Shown here in pieces: positions 52,383-61,970 of a DNA stretch of 64,000 nucleotides (the first letter of the stretch is position 1; the number at the start of each line of letters is the position of its first letter). The notes beneath the pieces were generated by a model. That model was not told the origin of the DNA, ran no database searches, and worked only from the letters and a program-made list of their open reading frames with translations. This stretch comes from Sphaerisporangium rufum (GTDB taxonomy: Bacteria > Actinomycetota > Actinomycetes > Streptosporangiales > Streptosporangiaceae). The stretch spans positions 1 through 64,000 of the forward strand of contig NZ_BOOU01000013.1 of the NCBI RefSeq assembly GCF_016863395.1. Direction: 5' to 3'. The position numbers and the translations under genes were made by a program.

Positions 52383-53738
52383 ATGTCAGTCTCAGAGGTG
52401 AGGATGCGAAACCTGCCGCCGGAGGGGCCGGCCGGACCGGCCGGGCCCGCGGACCGGCCGGACGATCTCCTGGCGGAGGAGCCGCCGCCGCCCGGCGTGC
52501 CCGGAGACCCGCCGGGTCCCGGCGGGCCGGACGGCCCGCAGGAGCCGCCCGGCGGCGAGCCCGGCCCGCCCCGGGCCACCCGGGCGACCACCGCCGTCCT
52601 GATCGCCGGGCTGATCGTGGTGGTCGTCGTCACCGGCGTGCTCGGCACCGTCGCCGTGCTCATGACCAGCCGGCCCGGAGTGCCGCTCGGCTCGGCGCCG
52701 CCGCGCCGCCTGGCCACCCCGGTGTTCTTCGCCCCGGTCACCGGCACCCGGGCCGCGCCGTGCCCCGGCGCCGAGGCCGTGCTGGACGACACCGGCACCA
52801 CCTGCTACCAGCTGGACAAGGGCGTCACCGTGGCGTCGGTCATCAAGGTGGAGTCCGTCGCGGAGAAGGACGGGGGCTACTCGGTGCGCCTGGTGCCCGC
52901 CCCCGACAGCCGCGACCGGCTGGCCGATCTGACCAAGGACGCCGTCGGCAAGCTGCTGGCCGTCGTGGTGGACGACAAGGTCGTCACCGCGCCCCGGGTC
53001 GACCAGCCGATCACGCAGGACAGCCTGAGCATCGCCGGGCTGGACCAGGCCCGGGCCGACGCCCTGGTGGCCCGGCTGCTCGGCACCGCCGGCCCGTCGG
53101 CCGGTCCCACCGCGCCCGGCGCCACCCCGCCGGCCGCCGCGACGACCTGCCCGCCCGGCACCGGCCAGGGCGCGCAGGGCACGGGCCAGCAGGGCACGGG
53201 CCAGCAGGGCGTCGGCCAGCAGGGCACGGGTCAGGGCCAGTCCGGCACCGGTCAGCCGGGCGTGGGCCAGCCGGGCATCGGCCAGCAGGGGACCGGGCCG
53301 CAGGTCGGTACCGGAGTGCCGGACGCCGCCTCGACCTGCCCGCCGGGCGGCACCGGTCAGGGACAGCCGGATCCAGGCCAAGGGCCACCGGGCACCGGCA
53401 CCGGTCAGCCCCAGCAGGGCGGCACCGGCACCGACCAGAACCAGCAGGGCGGCACGGGTCAGAACCAGCAGGGCGGCACCGGGCCGGGGGCGACGCCGCC
53501 CGCCGGCTCGCTGGGGCCCCGCACCACCGGGCCGTCCGCCGGAGGCACCCCGGCGGCCCGGTCCACCGCCGCCGCCTCGCCCCGGGCCGGCCGCACCCCG
53601 GACCGGCGGTTCGCGAGCTGCCGGGAGGCCAACGCCGCCGGTTACGGGCCCTACACCAAGGGGCTGCACCCCGAGTACGCCTGGTACGTCGACGGCGACC
53701 ACGACGGGGTGGCCTGCGAGCGCGGCGACATCACCTGA
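52383..53738 (+). CDS. Membrane-anchored SecD-head-like/Gln-Gly-repeat/Excalibur surface protein
   Basis: 451 aa. A Pro/Gly-rich cytosolic start, TM helix (about 70-93), then a domain resembling the SecD P1-head (GKLLAVVVDDKVVTAPRVDQPITQDSLSIAGLDQARADAL). A 150-residue linker of GTGQQG-type repeats follows. An Excalibur Ca2+-binding domain closes it (FASCREANAAGYGPYTKGLH, DGDHDGVACE with the DxDxDGxxCE loop). No SecD transmembrane body is present. The start may be leaderless (TAGGCT 10 nt upstream), and an ATG 7 codons later has a GAGGTGAGG box. Its end overlaps the convergent xdh gene by 8 bp. Confidence 0.8.
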   Translation: MSVSEVRMRNLPPEGPAGPAGPADRPDDLLAEEPPPPGVPGDPPGPGGPDGPQEPPGGEPGPPRATRATTAVLIAGLIVVVVVTGVLGTVAVLMTSRPGVPLGSAPPRRLATPVFFAPVTGTRAAPCPGAEAVLDDTGTTCYQLDKGVTVASVIKVESVAEKDGGYSVRLVPAPDSRDRLADLTKDAVGKLLAVVVDDKVVTAPRVDQPITQDSLSIAGLDQARADALVARLLGTAGPSAGPTAPGATPPAAATTCPPGTGQGAQGTGQQGTGQQGVGQQGTGQGQSGTGQPGVGQPGIGQQGTGPQVGTGVPDAASTCPPGGTGQGQPDPGQGPPGTGTGQPQQGGTGTDQNQQGGTGQNQQGGTGPGATPPAGSLGPRTTGPSAGGTPAARSTAAASPRAGRTPDRRFASCREANAAGYGPYTKGLHPEYAWYVDGDHDGVACERGDIT

Positions 53739-55998
53739 TCCGCCCCGGGACAAGGTCCAGCGCGATGTCCTGCGGGCGGATCGGTACCCGGGGCAGCGGC
53801 AGCCCGGTCGCCGCCCGCACCGCGGCGGCGACCGCCGGGGTGGAGGACAGCGTCGGCGGCTCGCCCGCGCCGCGCAGCCCGTACGGGGCGGCCGGGTCCG
53901 GGTGCTCGACGACGACCACCCGCATCGGCGGCATGTCGAGGATGGTGGGGATCAAGTAGTCGGTGAACGACGGGTTGAGCACCCGGCCGTCCCGCACCTG
54001 GATCTCCTCCATCAGCGCCAGCCCGAGGCCCTGCGCGGTGCCGCCGTGGATCTGCCCCTCCAGTGCCGGCGGGTTCAGCACCCGGCCGACGTCCTGTACC
54101 GCGGCGAGCTCGACCACCTTGACCAGGCCGAGCTCCACGTCCACGTCCACCACCGCTCGGTGCACGCACAGCGCGAGCTGGACGTGCGAGTCGCCCTGGC
54201 CGGTGACCGGGTCCATCGGCCGCGTAGGCCGGTGCCGGTACTCCCGGGTCTCCTCCACCGGGCCGGCGGCGGCCAGCACCTCGGCGAGCGGCGCGCCGGG
54301 ACGCTCGGCGCGCAGCCGGTCCAGCCGCTCGCGCACCGCCTCGCAGGCGGCCTTGACCGCGCCGCCGGTGACGTACGACTGCCGGGAGGCCGAGCTGGAC
54401 CCGGCCGAGCCGACCGAGGTGTCGGCGGGCGCCACGGTCACCCGGTCGACGCCCAGCTCGGTACGGGCGATCTGCTCCTGCACCATGATCAGGCCCTGGC
54501 CGACCTCGGCCGCCGCGGTGTGCACCAGGACGTGCGGCTCCTCGCCGAGCAGTTCCACCCGCACCCGGGCCGTGGAGTAGTCGTCGAAGCCCTCGGAGAA
54601 GCAGATGTTCTTGATCCCGACGCCGTAGCCGACGCCGCGCCGCACCCCCTCGCCGTGGGTGGTCTGCGCCACCCCGCCGGGCAGGTGGCGAAGGTCGCCG
54701 TCCGGGGCCGGCCCGGGCATCGGCAGCGCGGCCAGCTCGCCGAGCAGCCCGGCCAGCGGCGCGGTGGAGTCGATCACCTGGCCGTTCGCCAGCCGCGAGC
54801 CCTCGGCGACGGCGTTGCGGGTCCGGATCTCCAGCGGGTCCAGGCCGCAGGCCGCGGCGAGCCGGTCCATCTGCGACTCGTAGGCGAAGCAGGCCTGCAC
54901 CGCGCCGAAGCCGCGCATCGCGCCGCACGGCGGGTTGTTGGTGTAGGCGCCGTAGGCGTCGATCTCGATGTTGGGCACCTCGTACGGCCCGGCGCCCAGC
55001 GAGGCGGCGTTGCCCACGACGGCGGGGGTGGAGGAGCAGTAGGCGCCGCCGTCCAGGACGATCTCCGCCTTGACGTAGACCAGCCGGCCGTCCCGGGTGG
55101 CGCCGTGCTCGTAACGCATCCGGGCCGGGTGGCGGTGCACGTGGCCGAAGAACGACTCCTCCCGGCCGTACACCATCTTGACCGGGCGGCCGGTGCGCAG
55201 CGCCAGCATGGCGGCGTGCACCTGCATGGACAGGTCCTCCCGGGCGCCGAACGCGCCGCCGACCCCGGCCAGCGACAGCCGCACCTTGTCCTTGGGCAGG
55301 CCCAGGCAGGGGGCCACCTGGTCCTGGTCCACGTGCAGCCACTGGGTGGCGACGAACAGGTCCACCCCGCCGTCCTCGGCGGGCACCGCCAGCCCGGATT
55401 CCGGGCCGAGGAACGCCTGGTCCTGCATGCCGACCTCGTACTCGCCGGTCACCACCACCTCGGCCATCCCCGGGTGCGGCGGGTGCCCGACCCGGACCGG
55501 CTGGTGGCGGACCACGTTCCCGGCCGGGTGCACCGCCGGGCAGCCGGGGTCGAAGAGCGCCCGGCGCGCGTCGGTGACCGGCTCGCGCGTCTCGTAGGAG
55601 ACCACGATCGCCGCCGCGGCCCGGCGGGCGGTCTCCGGGTGGTCGGCGGCGACGACGGCCACCGGTTCGCCCTGGTAGCGGACCTGGTCGATGGCGAGGA
55701 CCGGCTGGTCGCGGTGCTCCAGGCCGTAGAACCGCTCGCCGGGCACGTCCTGGTGGGTCAGCACCGCGCGCACGCCGGGCAGGGCGAGGGCGGGGCCGAC
55801 GTCGATCGACCGGATCCACGCCGAGGGGTGCGGGCTGCGCAGCGTGGCGCCCCACAGCATGCCGTCCAGGTACAGGTCGGAGGAGTAGGCGAACTCGCCG
55901 GTGACCTTCAGGGTGCCGTCCGGCCGCGGCAGGCTCGCGCCGACCCCCAGCCCGTCCTGTCCCTGGCTCCGGCTCCGGTCGCCGGCGGTGCGCGTCAC
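53731..55998 (-). CDS. Xanthine dehydrogenase-type molybdenum-binding subunit
   Basis: 755 aa. The large molybdopterin subunit of the xanthine oxidase family: GVGASLPRPDGTLKVTGEFAYSSDL start, GAFGAREDLSMQVHAAMLA, CGAMRGFGAVQACFAYESQMD, VGQGLIMVQEQIARTEL, and the catalytic Glu in LRGAGEPPTLSSTPAVAAAV. The FAD and 2Fe-2S subunits are not adjacent. The divergent pucR gene points to purine (hypoxanthine/xanthine) oxidation. GTG start without a clear ribosome site. Confidence 0.9.
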   Translation of the reverse strand: MTRTAGDRSRSQGQDGLGVGASLPRPDGTLKVTGEFAYSSDLYLDGMLWGATLRSPHPSAWIRSIDVGPALALPGVRAVLTHQDVPGERFYGLEHRDQPVLAIDQVRYQGEPVAVVAADHPETARRAAAAIVVSYETREPVTDARRALFDPGCPAVHPAGNVVRHQPVRVGHPPHPGMAEVVVTGEYEVGMQDQAFLGPESGLAVPAEDGGVDLFVATQWLHVDQDQVAPCLGLPKDKVRLSLAGVGGAFGAREDLSMQVHAAMLALRTGRPVKMVYGREESFFGHVHRHPARMRYEHGATRDGRLVYVKAEIVLDGGAYCSSTPAVVGNAASLGAGPYEVPNIEIDAYGAYTNNPPCGAMRGFGAVQACFAYESQMDRLAAACGLDPLEIRTRNAVAEGSRLANGQVIDSTAPLAGLLGELAALPMPGPAPDGDLRHLPGGVAQTTHGEGVRRGVGYGVGIKNICFSEGFDDYSTARVRVELLGEEPHVLVHTAAAEVGQGLIMVQEQIARTELGVDRVTVAPADTSVGSAGSSSASRQSYVTGGAVKAACEAVRERLDRLRAERPGAPLAEVLAAAGPVEETREYRHRPTRPMDPVTGQGDSHVQLALCVHRAVVDVDVELGLVKVVELAAVQDVGRVLNPPALEGQIHGGTAQGLGLALMEEIQVRDGRVLNPSFTDYLIPTILDMPPMRVVVVEHPDPAAPYGLRGAGEPPTLSSTPAVAAAVRAATGLPLPRVPIRPQDIALDLVPGRIR

Positions 55999-56102
55999 AC
56001 CGGCAGTACATCAGCCGGTCCGGGCGCCGCCTATGGCCGCGCCCGCGAAACGCCGGGACCGGCCGGGCCGCGTGCTTGTAGATTCGTCCAAACGGCCGGG
56101 GT

Positions 56103-56108
56103 TAGCCT
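56103..56108 (+). promoter_or_regulatory. -10 element of the leaderless pucR promoter
   Basis: TAGCCT ends exactly 6 nt before the GTG start of pucR and there is no Shine-Dalgarno sequence, the same layout as at 2885 and 4507. The 116-bp gap to xdh must also hold the xdh promoter. Confidence 0.5.
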
Positions 56109-56114
56109 GGGACG

Positions 56115-57761
56115 GTGCGGATACGAGACCTGCTCGCCATCGGCGGGCTCCCGGTCAGGCTGCTGTCGGACGCCGCCCATCTGGACCGGTCCTTCACCGG
56201 CGTGCACATCACCGACCTGCCCGACCCGGGCCGCTACCTGACCGGCGGCGAGCTGGTGCTCACCGGGCTCACCTGGCGGCGGACCCCCGGCGACTCGGCG
56301 CGCTTCGTCGCGGCGCTGGCCGGTGCGCGGGTCGCGGCGCTCGGCGCCGGACGGGCGCTGCTCGGTCACGTCCCGGACGATCTGGCGGACGCCTGCCGCG
56401 AGTACGACCTGCCGCTGATCGACGTGCCGACCGAGGTCTCCTTCCGCGCGCTGGCCGGGCTGGTGGAGACCCGGCTGGCCTCGGCGGGCGCGGCCGGGCT
56501 GCGCGGCGCGCTCGGCCGGCAGCGGCGCATCGTGGCCGCCGTGGCCGAGGGCGGCGGGCTGCCCGCGCTGGTCGAGCTGACCTCCGGGGAGCTGGGCGTG
56601 CCCGCCGCGGTCATCTCCGCGTCCGGCACGGTGGTTGCGGGCCGGCTGCCCGCCGCGACGGCCCGCCGGCTGGCCGGGGAGTGGCTGGCGGCGCCCCGGC
56701 TGCCGCACCTGGTGGCCACCGAGGAGCGGGCCTACACCCTGTTCGCGGTGGACCGGTCGCATCGGGCCGCGGGCTGGGCCCTGGCCCTCGGCGCGGATGT
56801 GCTGGACCGGGCGGACGCCGGATTCGAGGCCGCGGCCTGCGCGGCGATGGAACGCGCCCGGCTGGAGGAGGGCCGCCGGGTGGAGCGCCGGCTGGCGGCG
56901 GAGCTGGTGGAGCTGGCCGGTTCCGGCATGGCGGATCCCGCCGAGCTGGCAGCCCGGCTGCGTACCTGCGGTGTCGGCCCCGACGAGCCGTACGTGGTGC
57001 TCGCCGCGACGGCGGATGACCCGGGCGCGGGCGTGGCCGGGTCGGCGGCGCTCGGCGGGCAGGTGCTGGAGGAGGTGCTCGACCGGAGGGTGGTCGCCGC
57101 GGTGAGTCCGGACGTCGCCCTGGCGCTGGTGCCGCTTCGCCCCCCGGCGGGGTCCCCGGAAGACGATCACGCGGCGGAAGTGGCGAAACGGCATCGAAAT
57201 CGTATTGACCCCTGGTCCCGACCCGCCGTGCGGAGTACCGTGCAAATGCAAGCACAACCGCAAGTGCAACGTAGCGTGCGGGCGCTACTTGACCTGCTTG
57301 GAGATCGCGTGCCGGGCCTGCAGACCGCCCTTCCGGGACTCCGGTTGTCGGTCGGGGTGAGCGGCGCGGCGACCGGATCGGGCGGCATCCGCGGCGGGGC
57401 CGAGGAGGCGGGGCACGCCCGGCGGCTCGCCGAGGCGCGCGGGGGAGGAGTGGTGACCAGCGATGAGATCTACACGCACGACCTGCTGCTGGCCACCGTT
57501 CCCGATACGGTGCGCCGGTCGTTCACCGAGCGGATCTTGAATCCGCTCGTCGAGTACGACCGGCGCCACCGGTCCGAGCTGGTCCGTACCCTCGGAACGT
57601 TCCTCGATTGCTCGGGATCCTGGAACCTGTGTGCCGAACGTCTGCACGTGCATGTGAACACCGTGCGTTACCGCATCAGCCGAATAGAGGAGTTGACCGG
57701 GAAGAGGCTGGGGTCGATGGCGGACAGAGTCGATCTATACCTCGCGCTGCGTGCAGGATGA
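56115..57761 (+). CDS. pucR: PucR-family purine catabolism regulator
   Basis: 548 aa. N-terminal PucR domain (VRIRDLLAIGGLPVRLLSDAAHLDRSFTGVHITDLPDPGRYLTGGELVLTG), a central region and the C-terminal PucR/CdaR HTH (LVRTLGTFLDCSGSWNLCAERLHVHVNTVRYRISRIEELTG). An insert around residues 350-390 (basic, then Gln-rich QMQAQPQVQ) is encoded with lower GC than the rest. It likely activates the divergent xdh gene in response to a purine or nucleotide signal. Confidence 0.9.
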   Translation: MRIRDLLAIGGLPVRLLSDAAHLDRSFTGVHITDLPDPGRYLTGGELVLTGLTWRRTPGDSARFVAALAGARVAALGAGRALLGHVPDDLADACREYDLPLIDVPTEVSFRALAGLVETRLASAGAAGLRGALGRQRRIVAAVAEGGGLPALVELTSGELGVPAAVISASGTVVAGRLPAATARRLAGEWLAAPRLPHLVATEERAYTLFAVDRSHRAAGWALALGADVLDRADAGFEAAACAAMERARLEEGRRVERRLAAELVELAGSGMADPAELAARLRTCGVGPDEPYVVLAATADDPGAGVAGSAALGGQVLEEVLDRRVVAAVSPDVALALVPLRPPAGSPEDDHAAEVAKRHRNRIDPWSRPAVRSTVQMQAQPQVQRSVRALLDLLGDRVPGLQTALPGLRLSVGVSGAATGSGGIRGGAEEAGHARRLAEARGGGVVTSDEIYTHDLLLATVPDTVRRSFTERILNPLVEYDRRHRSELVRTLGTFLDCSGSWNLCAERLHVHVNTVRYRISRIEELTGKRLGSMADRVDLYLALRAG

Positions 57762-57769
57762 GATCGCCG

Positions 57770-57910
57770 TCAGCAGCAGAGAACATTGGTGACGATGGCG
57801 GCCTCCGCCGCAGGAGCGGCCGTCGTACCGGTGACAGTACTCGCCGTCCCTCCGAGGGCGGCGCTCACCGCGATGGCCAGCAAGGTCGAGGCGAGGCGGA
57901 CGCGTCGCAT
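57770..57910 (-). CDS. Small secreted peptide precursor (46 aa), candidate signal peptide for the adjacent HTH-TPR regulator
   Basis: Too short for routine gene calling. It begins MRRVRLASTLLAIAVSAALG (a basic start and hydrophobic core), continues with a Thr/Ala-rich region holding an AEA/AxA cleavage site and ends ...AAIVTNVLCC, so export should release an octapeptide-sized tail with a terminal Cys-Cys. GGGAG lies 8 nt before the ATG, and about 80% of third positions are G/C, as in real genes here. It is divergent from and only 53 bp away from an HTH-TPR regulator. This is the layout of RRNPP peptide-receptor systems. Function is inference. Confidence 0.6.
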   Translation of the reverse strand: MRRVRLASTLLAIAVSAALGGTASTVTGTTAAPAAEAAIVTNVLCC

Positions 57911-57963
57911 GGCTTACTCCCGTCGTATCCATTGGTGGGGCTTACATCTTTAGAGGGGTGTCA

Positions 57964-59244
57964 GTGACCAGTCAAGATCTTATAGGTCAGCGGATAAAGA
58001 CCATCCGCCGTCAGCGAGGTCTATCACAAGCTCAGCTGGCGCATCCGGAGTTGTCGGATAGTTATGTATCACTCATCGAGAGCGGCAAACGCACTCCTAC
58101 GGCAGCGGTCCTGGAATTGCTGGCCACGAAGCTGGACTGCTCGCTGACCTATCTGGTCAACGGGGTGACCGCCGACCAGATGGAGGAACTGGATTTCAGC
58201 CTGCGCTACGCCGCTCTCGCCCTGGAGAACGGCGAGGTGGCGGAGGCCCGGCGGCGGTACGCCGAATTGCTGGCGAACGACAACATCGCCGGGCTCGTCA
58301 CTCTGCGTCAGCAGGCCGAGTACGGCTACGCACTGGCCACCGAGGCCTGCGGGGAGCTGGACGAGGCGATCGAGACGCTGTCCCGGCTGCGGGTCGCCGA
58401 CCCCCCGCCCACCCCGGAGCGGCGGGTCGCGATCGTGCTCGCCCTCTGCCGGTGCTACCGCGACCGTGGACAGCTGTTCCACGCGGTCGAAGTGGCCGAG
58501 GACGTGCTGGCCGGCCCTGAGCGGCCGGTCTGGACCGACGGCCTGGTGGAGCTGGGGGCCACCCTCCTCGGAGCGTACTTCGTGCGTGGAGACCTCCTGC
58601 GCGCCCGGCAGTTCTCGGCCGAGTTGCTCGCCGCCGCGGAGAGCCTCGGCTCGCCGCGGGCGAACGTCGCGGCCTGCTGGAACGCCGCTGTCGTCGCCCA
58701 GTGCACGGGGCACGTCGAGGAGTCGCTGCAACTGATCGACCGGGCACTCGCCGTCCAGTCCGAGTACGGCGAGCCGCGCAATCTCGCCCGGCTGCGGATC
58801 CAGGCGGCGGCGCTGCGCCTTCCGCATGACCCCGCCGAGGCCCGCGACATGCTACGGCGGGCGCGCCGGCAGCTTTCGGAGACCTCGGCGAGCACTGTCG
58901 ACTTCGCCTGGGTCACCTATTACCTGGCGCAGGCGGAGTATCTACTGGGCAACGCCGCGACGGCCGCCGAACTCGCGCGAGAGGCGACCGACGCTCTGGA
59001 CGACCGCACCGGCGCCGTCCGGGTGGAGACGCGGCTGATGCTCGCCAACGCCCTGATGGCTCAAGGCCGGGGGCAGGAGGCCCGCAAGGAGCTGGCACTG
59101 GCCGAAGAGCTTCTGGAGAAGGTGCCCGTGCGCAGCGCCACGGCCGCCGGCGGATGGATGAACGTCGCCACCGCGATGGAACGGGTGGACGTTGAGGCAG
59201 GAGTGGCGGCCTACCAGCGGGCGCTCGCCTGCGCGGGGCTCTGA
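57964..59244 (+). CDS. XRE-HTH regulator with C-terminal TPR domain (RRNPP-like)
   Basis: 426 aa. Residues 5-65 form an XRE HTH (QDLIGQRIKTIRRQRGLSQAQLAHPELSDSYVSLIESGKRTP). The remainder, about 350 residues, is a helical array of TPR-like pairs (ALALENGEVAEARRRYAELLANDN, ECCGEL-like EACGELDEAIETLSRL, AELAREATDALDDRTG, GRGQEARKELALAEELLE). This is the design of peptide-binding regulators such as PlcR/NprR/Rgg. GTG with AGAGGGG 6 nt upstream; the GTG two codons earlier overlaps the box. A terminator follows. Confidence 0.9.
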   Translation: MTSQDLIGQRIKTIRRQRGLSQAQLAHPELSDSYVSLIESGKRTPTAAVLELLATKLDCSLTYLVNGVTADQMEELDFSLRYAALALENGEVAEARRRYAELLANDNIAGLVTLRQQAEYGYALATEACGELDEAIETLSRLRVADPPPTPERRVAIVLALCRCYRDRGQLFHAVEVAEDVLAGPERPVWTDGLVELGATLLGAYFVRGDLLRARQFSAELLAAAESLGSPRANVAACWNAAVVAQCTGHVEESLQLIDRALAVQSEYGEPRNLARLRIQAAALRLPHDPAEARDMLRRARRQLSETSASTVDFAWVTYYLAQAEYLLGNAATAAELAREATDALDDRTGAVRVETRLMLANALMAQGRGQEARKELALAEELLEKVPVRSATAAGGWMNVATAMERVDVEAGVAAYQRALACAGL

Positions 59245-59391: not shown

Positions 59392-59988
59392 ATGAAGACT
59401 TCCCCGCTCGCCGTCATGCTGGCCTTCCTCGCGGCCATCGTACTCGGCACCGCCGTGGCGTCTCCGGCGCTCGCGCACACCTCGCTGAAGAGCAGTGATC
59501 CCAAGAAGGGCGCCACGGTCGAGTCGATCGACGAGATCAGGCTCACCTTCACCGAGAGCGTGAAACTTCCATCTGTCGTGCTGAACGACGCGGACGGCAA
59601 GGCACACCAGGACGGCAGGCCGGAGGTCGACGGCGCGGTGGTGACCCAGCGGGTCGCCGGCACGCTGCCGGCGGGCAAGTACACGATCGCCTGGCGGGTG
59701 GTCTCCGCGGACGGGCACCCGGTCGTGGGCGAGATCCCCTTCACCGTGCGGGCGGCCGAGCCGGAGCCGTCGGCCACCACGCCCTCGGCGATCGAGGCGA
59801 CCCCGGTCGCGCCCGCGGTGCCCGCCACGCCCGCGCCCGACACCCCGGTGGCGACGCCGGCGGCCGGGGCGGAGCAGGACGCGGCGCAGGAAGGCGGATC
59901 CGGCGTGCCGGGCTGGGTGTGGATCGTCGTGCTCGGCCTGGCCGGTGTCGGCATCGGCATGGTGATCAGCCTGCGGAAGCAGCCGTGA
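59392..59988 (+). CDS. copC: CopC-domain copper-binding secreted protein
   Basis: 198 aa. Signal peptide cleaved near SPALA-HTSL, leaving the N-terminal His that ligates Cu(II) in CopC/YobA proteins. HTSLKSSDPKKGATV and a second His in SADGHPVVGEIPFTV are the canonical site. A Pro/Ala linker and C-terminal TM helix (WVWIVVLGLAGVGIGMVISL) tether it to the membrane. AGGGGG precedes the ATG. The stop overlaps the copD-ctaG start (GTGA). Confidence 0.93.
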   Translation: MKTSPLAVMLAFLAAIVLGTAVASPALAHTSLKSSDPKKGATVESIDEIRLTFTESVKLPSVVLNDADGKAHQDGRPEVDGAVVTQRVAGTLPAGKYTIAWRVVSADGHPVVGEIPFTVRAAEPEPSATTPSAIEATPVAPAVPATPAPDTPVATPAAGAEQDAAQEGGSGVPGWVWIVVLGLAGVGIGMVISLRKQP

Positions 59989-61970
59989 GCCGCACGGCGC
60001 GCCTGGCGATCGCCGGGGCATGCGCCGCCCTGGTCGGCCTGGCCGTCGCCATGCTGGTCGGCGGGGCCGCCACCCCCCGGGTGATCCCCGGGCTGCCCGA
60101 CGAGGGCACCCTGACCCGCTGGGGCCTGCCGATATCGAAGATGGCGATGGACGTGGCCGGCGTGGTCGCCGTCGGCCTGCTGCTGGCGGCCGTCCTGCTG
60201 CCCAGCGACAAGGGCCTGCTCGGGGGGCCGGCGCGCGGCTACGTCCGGGCCGCCTCCTGGGCCGGCCTGGTGTGGGCGGTCGCCGCCGCGGCGACCATGA
60301 TCTTCAGCCTGTCGGAGACGCTCGGGGCCCCCGTCTTCGAGGTGCTCGACGGCGACGAGCTGACCAGCTACGCCAGCCAGGTGCAGCAGGGCATCGCCCT
60401 CACCCTGGTCGTGCTGTTCGGCACGGCCATCGCGCTGTTCGCCCACGGCGCTATCACCGCCGGGGCGGCCGGCGGTCTCCTGGTGCTCGCCCTGGTGACC
60501 CTGCTGCCGCCCGCCCTCACCGGCCACTCGTCCTCGGCGCCCAACCACGGGCTGGCCACGACCAGCGTCGCGCTCCACCTGCTGGTGCTGGCGCCGTGGG
60601 TCGGCGGCCTGCTGCTGCTGAGCGTGCACGCCATGCGCGGCGCGCCGAGCCTTGACCTGGCCGCGCGGCGGTTCTCCCGCATGGCGCTGTGGTGCTTCGC
60701 CGGGGTGGGGCTGTCCGGCCTGTTCAGCGCGCTCGCCCGGCTCACCACGGTGGGCGACCTGTTCGCCACCGACTACGGCCTGATCCTGCTGGCCAAGGTC
60801 GCCGCGTTCGCCGGGCTCGGCCTCGTCGGCAACTGGCACCGCAAGACGACGCTGCCCGAGCTGGCGGCCGGGCGTCCCGGCGCGTTCGCCCGGCTGGCCG
60901 GTGTCGAGGGTCTGATCATGATGCTGACGTTCGGCCTGGCCGTCGCGCTGTCCCGCACGCCGCCGCCTCCGCTGGACCTGCCGGTGGATCCGGTGTTCGA
61001 GCTGCTCGGCTACGTCATGCCGCCGCCGCTGACGCTCGCGAACCTGGCCTCGCTGTGGTGGTTCGACCTGTTCTTCGCGACCGTGGCCGCGGTGCTGGCG
61101 CTGTGTTACGGGGCCGGCGTGCTGCGGCTGGCCCGCCGCGGCGACCGCTGGCCGGTGGGCCGCACGGTCAGCTGGGGGATCGGCGTCCTGCTGCTGGTGC
61201 TGGCCACCCAGAGCGGCGTGGCCCGCTACGCGCCGGTGCTGTTCAGCGTGCACATGGCCGAGCACATGGTGCTGTCTATGCTGGTGCCGATCTTCCTGGT
61301 GCTCGGCGCGCCGGTCACCCTGGCGCTGCGGGCGCTGAAGCCGGCCGCCCGGCGCGGCGACCGCGGGCCGCGCGAATGGCTCACCGCGGTCCTGCACAGC
61401 CGGGCGGCCAAGGTCATCACCCATCCGGCGGTGGTGACGATCCTGTTCGTCGTCTCCACCTACGCCCTGTACTTCACCCCGATCTTCGGCGCCGCGATGG
61501 AGGAGCATCTCGGCCACATCGCGATGACGCTGCACTTCCTGCTGAGCGGGTGCCTGTTCTTCTGGGTGATCGTCGGGGTCGACCCGGCGCCCACCCGGCT
61601 GCCGCACGTGGCCCGGCTGCTGCTGCTGTTCGTGACCATGCCCTTCCACGCCTTCTTCGGCGTCGCGCTGATGAACATGGGCACGGTGATCGCGCCGGAC
61701 TGGTACGAGCGGCTCGGCCGCACCTGGGGTGATCCGCCGCTCGCCGACCAGCGCACCGGCGGCGGGATCGCCTGGGCGTTCGGTGAGATCCCCACGCTGA
61801 TCGTGCTGATCGCGCTGGCCGTCCAGTGGTACCGGGACGACGACCGGGCGGCCCGGCGCGCGGACCGGCGGGCCGACGCACGCGCGGCGAAGACCGGCGG
61901 CACCGGGGACGCCGAGCTGGACGCCTACAACGACTACCTGGCGCGGCTCGACCGGTCCGACCCCACGTGA
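59985..61970 (+). CDS. CopD-CtaG fusion membrane protein
   Basis: 661 aa, many membrane helices. The first half is a CopD copper-import domain (SSSAPNHGLATTSVALHLLVLAPWVGGLLLL, FSRMALWCFAGVGLSGLF). The second half is the caa3-type cytochrome c oxidase assembly factor CtaG (VHMAEHMVLSMLVPIFLVLGAPVTLALRAL, MEEHLGHIAMTLHFLLSGCLFFWVIVGVDP). It probably supplies copper to cytochrome oxidase together with CopC, to which it is translationally coupled. Such fusions are common in actinobacteria. Confidence 0.93.
   Translation: MSRTARLAIAGACAALVGLAVAMLVGGAATPRVIPGLPDEGTLTRWGLPISKMAMDVAGVVAVGLLLAAVLLPSDKGLLGGPARGYVRAASWAGLVWAVAAAATMIFSLSETLGAPVFEVLDGDELTSYASQVQQGIALTLVVLFGTAIALFAHGAITAGAAGGLLVLALVTLLPPALTGHSSSAPNHGLATTSVALHLLVLAPWVGGLLLLSVHAMRGAPSLDLAARRFSRMALWCFAGVGLSGLFSALARLTTVGDLFATDYGLILLAKVAAFAGLGLVGNWHRKTTLPELAAGRPGAFARLAGVEGLIMMLTFGLAVALSRTPPPPLDLPVDPVFELLGYVMPPPLTLANLASLWWFDLFFATVAAVLALCYGAGVLRLARRGDRWPVGRTVSWGIGVLLLVLATQSGVARYAPVLFSVHMAEHMVLSMLVPIFLVLGAPVTLALRALKPAARRGDRGPREWLTAVLHSRAAKVITHPAVVTILFVVSTYALYFTPIFGAAMEEHLGHIAMTLHFLLSGCLFFWVIVGVDPAPTRLPHVARLLLLFVTMPFHAFFGVALMNMGTVIAPDWYERLGRTWGDPPLADQRTGGGIAWAFGEIPTLIVLIALAVQWYRDDDRAARRADRRADARAAKTGGTGDAELDAYNDYLARLDRSDPT

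Follow-up and report, generated by a model that had tools for sequence, protein, structure and literature searches.

The locus analysed here raises the question of whether a short open reading frame (ORF) that diverges from an HTH-TPR regulator encodes a peptide signal for that regulator, that is, whether the two genes form an RRNPP-like signalling pair, as a preliminary description had proposed. Both genes lie in the window, which is the whole stretch of 64,000 nucleotides of Sphaerisporangium rufum DNA that was analysed, and all positions below refer to it.

The precursor peptide gene (57770–57910, minus strand, stop included) was assigned from its translation and its retention in relatives. 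It has 46 codons and encodes the 46-aa product MRRVRLASTLLAIAVSAALGGTASTVTGTTAAPAAEAAIVTNVLCC. A ribosome-binding site, GGGAG (57917–57921, minus strand), can be read directly 6 nt ahead of the ATG, and the GC3 of the ORF is 0.80, compared to 0.63 for GC1 and 0.67 for GC2. The first 28 codons (57827–57910, minus strand) form a signal-peptide-like part, in which a basic MRRVR is followed by a hydrophobic stretch; this assignment rests only on a hydropathy filter, where the best 10-residue mean was 2.6. The final AxA of the precursor is AEA, and the residues after it, AIVTNVLCC (57773–57799, minus strand), constitute the variable tail and the candidate mature peptide, the real length of which is undetermined, the octapeptide of the preliminary description being a guess. 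The tail ends in two Cys codons (57773–57778, minus strand) that are invariant in 11/11 genus genomes. A profile of the close-family precursors matched one precursor in the organism's own genome, the next match (E 0.076) being noise.

The regulator, the candidate receptor (57964–59244, plus strand), was assigned from Pfam, AlphaFold and its orthologues. It is 428 aa long from the first in-frame GTG at 57958, from which residues are numbered, and 426 aa long from the GTG at 57964, which is preferred because it is in better accord with the ribosome site AGAGGGG and yields a gap of exactly 53 bp. An XRE-type HTH occupies residues 8–70 (57979–58167, plus strand; Pfam HTH_3, HTH_19 and HTH_31), followed by a TPR helical array at residues 72–425 (58171–59232, plus strand; Pfam TPR_12 and TPR_19, and AlphaFold). 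The AlphaFold model, predicted as a single chain from an input alignment of 65 sequences, exhibited a mean pLDDT of 94 and a pTM of 0.87, with the HTH followed by helices up to residue 425. No NCBIfam family matched the regulator above a cut-off. The NsdA family (NCBIfam NF053720) also consists of TPR-like regulators and matches residues 213–419, with a score of 32.7 against a cut-off of 75, and membership of this family was thus rejected. The sequence between the divergent genes is the 53-bp shared control region (57911–57963), and the corresponding gap is about 42–58 bp in most close orthologues. No sigma-70 consensus was found in a promoter scan of 57650–58150. These results bear out the individual elements of the preliminary description, namely a 46-codon gene with a ribosome site, high GC3 and a signal-peptide-like start, a short tail with Cys-Cys after an AxA site, and a regulator made of an XRE HTH and TPR-like helices; the 53-bp control region that it had given is exact if the regulator starts at GTG 57964.

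The pair is retained throughout the genus. The regulator was found in 11/11 genus genomes, including its own, the ten others being 61–71% identical, and in all 11 a divergent ORF of 43–46 codons ending in Cys-Cys (CC) lies about 50 bp away, two of the 11 precursors being identical. Among the best 80 of 119 relatives in a collection of named genomes, a divergent signal-peptide-like ORF was present at 80/80 loci, 70 of them with a CC end. A family search returned a regulator match in 197 of the 297 genomes drawn (E<=1e-30), a count that includes a peptide-less paralogue type; a spread of loci was fetched, and 70 loci were examined. For 197 distinct regulators, we labelled 133 as having a CC-ended precursor, 9 a precursor with CC near the end, 16 another signal-peptide-like ORF, and 39 none. 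One of the 16 other ORFs (L223) carries a CC with five residues behind it and would more properly be assigned to the CC type. The 39 regulators without a peptide by the filter comprise 16 of the paralogue type, three weak matches and 20 others, and the peptide-less receptors outside the paralogue type include the second copies in the tandems L052 and L053.

Because this first labelling favours CC, the choice of ORF was redone by position and start alone for the 98 closest distinct regulators (over 600 bits). An ORF was present next to 98/98 of these close orthologues, with a CC end in 83 and without it in 15, the 15 all belonging to one Streptosporangium-type clade. In a later set of 20 loci, 7 of which were already among the earlier loci, a candidate was seen at all 11 new loci that belong to the window's family or to family f19 (10 CC and one ending NWNYPD) and at neither of the two weak phylum-level matches (0/2), which account for the remainder of the 13 new loci. 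The species in these sets, and in the searches of other families described below, overlap and are related by descent. One of the two outcomes that the preliminary description had named as contradicting its proposal, the absence of a conserved small ORF beside orthologous regulators, is not borne out, an ORF being present at all 98 distinct close orthologues, and the Cys-Cys end that it had noted in the single window peptide turns out to be the most frequent signature in the precursor family.

The paralogue type is an HTH-TPR regulator that is 32–34% identical and occurs in the 11 genus genomes (L002, G000:C73:28883-30163; L015–L024; L232–L236). Its upstream region is strongly conserved and no precursor was found nearby, making it a candidate solo receptor. 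Neither a CC-ended nor a divergent signal-peptide-like ORF was seen beside 11 paralogue-type regulators in the 11 genus genomes.

The association with the regulator is specific. With a control filter requiring a CC end, 30–80 codons and a hydrophobic start, 135 CC-ended signal-peptide-like ORFs were found in the 239 kb lying within 700 bp of 181 regulators, whereas only 2 were found in 464 kb of other flanks; the 54 kb surrounding 16 regulators of the paralogue type contained none. The enrichment near regulators is about 130-fold, with the reservation that related loci are not independent, and the two outliers in the other flanks (L213 and L027) look like genuine precursors.

These counts bear on the possibility that the ORF is no gene at all, but a reading frame arisen by chance, or else a conserved DNA element with a promoter or regulatory role. 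The control region is indeed partly conserved as DNA, the start of the regulator gene included. However, in 33 sister pairs out of the 83 CC-ended precursors, pN/pS was 0.59 for the first 28 codons, the signal part, compared to 0.88 for the tail and 0.34 for the receptor, and the two Cys codons change synonymously, with a pS of 0.227 and a pN of 0.000. The latter value is 0.000 by construction, because the precursors were preselected for CC; the synonymous changes are unaffected. Sister pairs among the 98, where no selection for CC was applied, comprised 33 CC–CC pairs, 7 pairs in which neither member was CC, and 0 mixed pairs. Furthermore, the same architecture recurs in other families with different DNA and at other positions, and two similar ORFs on Streptomyces plasmids are annotated genes. 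A chance ORF is ruled out by the codon pattern together with the linkage to the regulator, and the absence of a gene in any of these forms is practically excluded. The small ORF is conserved and under coding constraint.

The tails differ widely ahead of their common end. Among 127 distinct CC precursors, the last eight residues take 122 different forms, Cys accounts for 0.1% of the eight positions ahead of the CC pair, and the residue directly before CC is mostly W, L, G, Y or F. Such a pattern is what would be expected if the peptide were a specific signal whose end is held constant. At L054 and L055, two tandem receptors have a precursor apiece, with tails unlike each other. The Streptosporangium-type precursors (L115, L120, L135, L063, L087, L090 and others) mostly exhibit aromatic-proline ends, such as GWNHPD, GWGWPG and SWSYPD. 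At L074, L075 and L083, a precursor between tandem receptors ends in LCCYE or KCCYE, with CC just short of the very end.

The neighbours of the pair in the window lie at 53731–57761 and 59392–61970. On the upstream side are a PucR-type regulator and, by eye, a xanthine-dehydrogenase-like ORF; downstream are CopC and, also by eye, a CopD-like ORF.

Metal binding is conceivable for adjacent conserved cysteines, and immediately downstream of the pair there is a CopC-type gene, not only in the window but also, by eye, at the seven further loci from congeners for which the flanking sequence was covered that far. The Cys-Cys peptide might be an effector itself, metal-binding, redox-active or antimicrobial, the HTH-TPR protein merely controlling its production. 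In 15 loci of Streptomyces and other families, by contrast, the flanking ORFs differ, as judged by eye from their translations and not by a family scan, suggesting that the pair travels as a unit and that the copper neighbour is local. In addition, a whole clade keeps both precursor and receptor without the CC end, the tails are near-freely variable with Cys as rare ahead of the pair as described above, and the tandem copies at L054 and L055 bear different tails. A metal or copper peptide was rejected in view of the different neighbours at the 15 loci, and an effector role in any form is, in our assessment, quite unlikely. A peptide signal read by the neighbouring regulator remains the preferred reading.

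The linkage extends beyond the family of the window. When 394 genomes of the class were searched, less similar regulators appeared in other families, and 24 of these in one alignment were 24–39% identical to the window regulator. For 45 distant regulators from eight other family codes, a CC-ended precursor was present at 34, one with CC near the end at 4, and none at 7; the seven include two close to the end of a contig and one whose CC precursor lies past 700 bp. The precursor in these families is divergent in 27 cases, convergent downstream in 10 and co-directional in 1. These results indicate that precursor and receptor are linked over many families. When 396 genomes from across the phylum were searched with a diverse profile, 29 loci were obtained and read; a short hydrophobic CC ORF was seen at 3 of them and no precursor at the other 26.

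At L240, L241, L297 and L298, the receptor has a CC precursor on either side; the tail of the divergent one reads, e.g., SPGDFCC and that of the downstream, convergent one GGSDFCC, and the residue before CC is the same in both at 3/4 loci. Beside distant receptor relatives at L266, L275 and L278, hydrophobic ORFs of 30–33 aa end in PWPPCC, PWPHCC and PFPGCCG.

On plasmid pSMg1-1 of Streptomyces sp. Mg1, a gap of 166 bp separates the regulator WP_008741298.1 from the gene that follows it, whose 71-aa product, WP_008741297.1, ends in KDIPLCC and is annotated as a 'hypothetical protein'. In Streptomyces sp. NBC_01707, WP_331750220.1, ending in GDLPLCC, lies 1.9 kb from the regulator. Sixteen records matched, and seven were examined (five from Streptomyces, one from Nonomuraea and one from Streptosporangium); a CC gene is near the regulator in the records of Nonomuraea gerenzanensis and Streptomyces sp. 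Mg1, and none was seen in four of the seven. These four misses are weak evidence, because the filter also missed the Mg1 gene, which is known only by its annotation. The Mg1 pair at L292 (NZ_CP011665.1:280000-312000) is neighboured by genes for ABC transport, for several enzymes and for a BTAD-domain regulator, and the region may be biosynthetic.

A further possibility is that the micropeptide acts in the producing cell, as membrane-bound or cytosolic feedback on the regulator, without exchange between cells. A short divergent gene in an autoregulatory layout would suit such feedback, as would three precursors by distant relatives, of 30–33 aa, in which a single hydrophobic stretch adjoins the CC end. 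The typical precursors, however, are built like those of exported peptides, in the order basic–hydrophobic–AxA, and their hypervariable tail would be superfluous for private feedback. We therefore regard feedback confined to the producing cell as unlikely, though not negligible, and keep to a signal exchanged between cells in what follows.

If the CC end is recognized by the receptor, receptors of CC precursors may differ from the others at particular residues. The codon of Thr202 lies at 58561–58563 and that of Asn242 at 58681–58683 (both plus strand). Thr202 is present in 132/145 CC receptors, 2/16 non-CC receptors, 12/23 receptors without a peptide and 0/16 paralogues, and Asn242 in 130/145, 0/16, 13/23 and 0/16, respectively. 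Among 43 distant CC receptors, Thr202 is kept in 37 and Asn242 in 39. Positions 202, 238 and 242 are presumably groove-facing, on helices 4 and 5, as judged from the TPR consensus and from the anchor glycines located in the receptor. A quick tree of 91 receptors placed the non-CC receptors (the Streptosporangium, Planomonospora and Planobispora type) as nested within the CC receptors. This non-CC clade is altered at columns 180, 202, 238, 242 and 275, which are at least 90% conserved elsewhere, whereas CC clades of like size have scattered altered columns, such as 6, 120, 166, 171 and 330. A looser comparison flagged 15 columns, ten of which lie elsewhere in the array, outside the proposed pocket.

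For the tandem loci L074, L075 and L083, the receptor divergent from the CCYE precursor has Thr202 and Asn242, and the second receptor, which lacks both, falls in the non-CC clade. As a counterexample, the CC-type receptors of family f25 (L221–L224) have neither residue. Coevolution of the tail with the predicted groove residues found no support in a partial Mantel test (r 0.05; 172/300 random position sets gave an equal or higher value), and an independent-contrast test of Thr202 and Asn242 offered only 2–3 pairs, too few for significance. These results suggest that the region around 202, 238 and 242 on helices 4–5 is likely the seat of Cys-Cys recognition, and no more than likely, because the link between residues and tail, inferred from alignments in the absence of binding data, reflects mainly one evolutionary event in one clade and cannot reach significance.

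Comparison with known systems supports the receptor assignment. When the diverse profile was compared with the PDB, the best match over both HTH and TPR was PlcR, one of the founding RRNPP receptors (E 3.9e-14; profile residues 2–235, PlcR residues 6–239); the close-family profile matched PlcR at 3.4e-10 and NprR (5dbk) at 1e-7 over profile residues 121–358. In a Foldseek search, PlcR–PapR7–DNA ranked third (E 6.9e-7, TM 0.39/0.56) and NprR 47th (TM 0.55/0.64). Unrelated TPR proteins, including non-signalling, eukaryotic and designed ones, are no poorer matches to the receptor than RRNPP proteins, and the fold thus agrees with RRNPP without being proof of descent. The receptor has the HTH-TPR architecture and is similar to PlcR.

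PlcR/PapR of the Bacillus cereus group likewise relies on an HTH and TPR receptor. The PapR precursor is of similar size and carries the signal at its C-terminus, and papR lies downstream of plcR in the same direction. The receptor here is longer (428 aa) and comes from another phylum, and PapR7, ADLPFEF (PMC6568020), has no Cys-Cys end, unlike the peptide here. For Rgg/SHP and ComR/ComS of streptococci, a short precursor lies beside an HTH-TPR regulator, as here. SHP genes are often divergent from rgg. SHP and ComS peptides are not known to end in Cys-Cys. SHP is exported by PptAB and not by Sec (PMC10075063). The ComR matches in the PDB profile search were HTH-only chains, and no Rgg was among the best 60 matches. 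NprR/NprX has an HTH-TPR receptor of a length similar to that here; it differs in belonging to Firmicutes and in its peptide. NprR has a dual function as phosphatase and regulator.

The RRNPP signature, as given in a survey (PMC10075063), consists of a receptor of 250–500 aa with TPRs and an adjacent precursor of 10–100 aa with a Sec signal and a ribosome site, the validated receptors spanning 285–473 aa and the propeptides 21–50 aa. The receptor here fits this signature (428 aa, Pfam HTH and TPR, pLDDT 94), as does the propeptide (46 aa, 53 bp away, GGGAG at 6 nt, kept beside orthologues). The precursor order of a short basic part, a hydrophobic part and a C-terminal signal is also met, by the hydropathy filter alone and with the location of the mature signal undetermined.

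With regard to the Arbitrium system (AimR/AimP), which is carried by temperate phages, no phage relatives were found in viral contigs scanned with two short peptide patterns, and 50,697 phage records contained one partial, unannotated matching record. Among the best 50 matches in a viral structure library, none carried the name AimR, and most were repeat proteins, either generic TPR or of another sort. The pair is present in 11/11 genus genomes; the locus itself was not assessed as a prophage.

One survey (PMC10075063) analysed Firmicutes and viruses, a survey of structural evolution (PMC9765709) was aimed at Firmicutes, and the word cysteine is absent from the main text of both. A literature search, limited to titles and abstract openings among the matches listed, with bioRxiv and most subscription papers outside its scope, found no RRNPP pair in actinomycetes. 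Because the signature is met in size and layout, and the surveys cover Firmicutes and viruses without mention of cysteine, the actinomycete pair appears to be a new form of RRNPP-kind system; shared descent with the Firmicutes receptors is not claimed.

Taken together, it is probable that the pair is an RRNPP-like, autoregulated peptide pheromone with its cytosolic receptor and a C-terminal Cys-Cys signature. The signalling pair put forward at the outset is supported by the linkage at 98/98 loci and by PlcR as the best HTH and TPR match in the PDB, with export, re-import and TPR binding remaining inference. In the proposed mechanism, the precursor would leave the cell by the general secretion route and be cut at an AxA-type site, releasing from its C-terminus a short peptide with a Cys-Cys end. 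This peptide would re-enter cells, probably via an oligopeptide-type ABC importer; the organism's own genome contains 12 matches to SBP_bac_5 (PF00496), the importer family expected for this step. It may then dock on the concave face of the TPR array, around helices 4–6 (Thr202 and Asn242), with the Cys-Cys end as the shared recognized feature and the variable residues ahead of it conferring strain or species specificity. Binding would alter the action of the HTH on the short shared promoter region, so that the pair would be autoregulated and further genes possibly controlled. In the absence of expression, binding or export data, the export, processing and re-import of the peptide, its binding and binding site, the sign of regulation and the targets are all inferred.

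As for targets, the inter-gene block CTGTAGTNCAATANTGTC of family f19 occurs once per genome in 5/5 f19 genomes, at the pair only, and a scan tolerating <=2 mismatches found no second site in these five genomes that would point to a regulon; one genome of the window's own family contained no match to the block. The confinement of the block to the pair locus favours autoregulation. At L221–L224, a TTTAC(N)GTAAA inverted repeat, noticed by eye, lies between regulator and precursor and is a possible operator.

Actinobacterial signals are typically small molecules according to PMC10075063, and a 2016 review describes cyclic or modified peptides and gamma-butyrolactones (PMC4748050). A broader reading, for and against which we see the balance as even, is that Actinomycetota own a widespread, hitherto unrecognized pheromone family of hypervariable exported peptides, typically Cys-Cys-ended and read by a pocket on TPR helices 4–6, in which the variable residues provide many private channels and the Cys-Cys end, as free thiols or a vicinal disulfide, serves as a common chemical handle. 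If true, RRNPP-type signalling, so far studied mainly in Firmicutes, would reach past that group, and the reason for two terminal cysteines in a signal would become a chemical question. Communication in the bacteria behind many antibiotics would also gain a direct point of access that is genetically encoded, and synthetic peptides derived from genomes could be added to cultures to test the control of development and of silent biosynthetic clusters.
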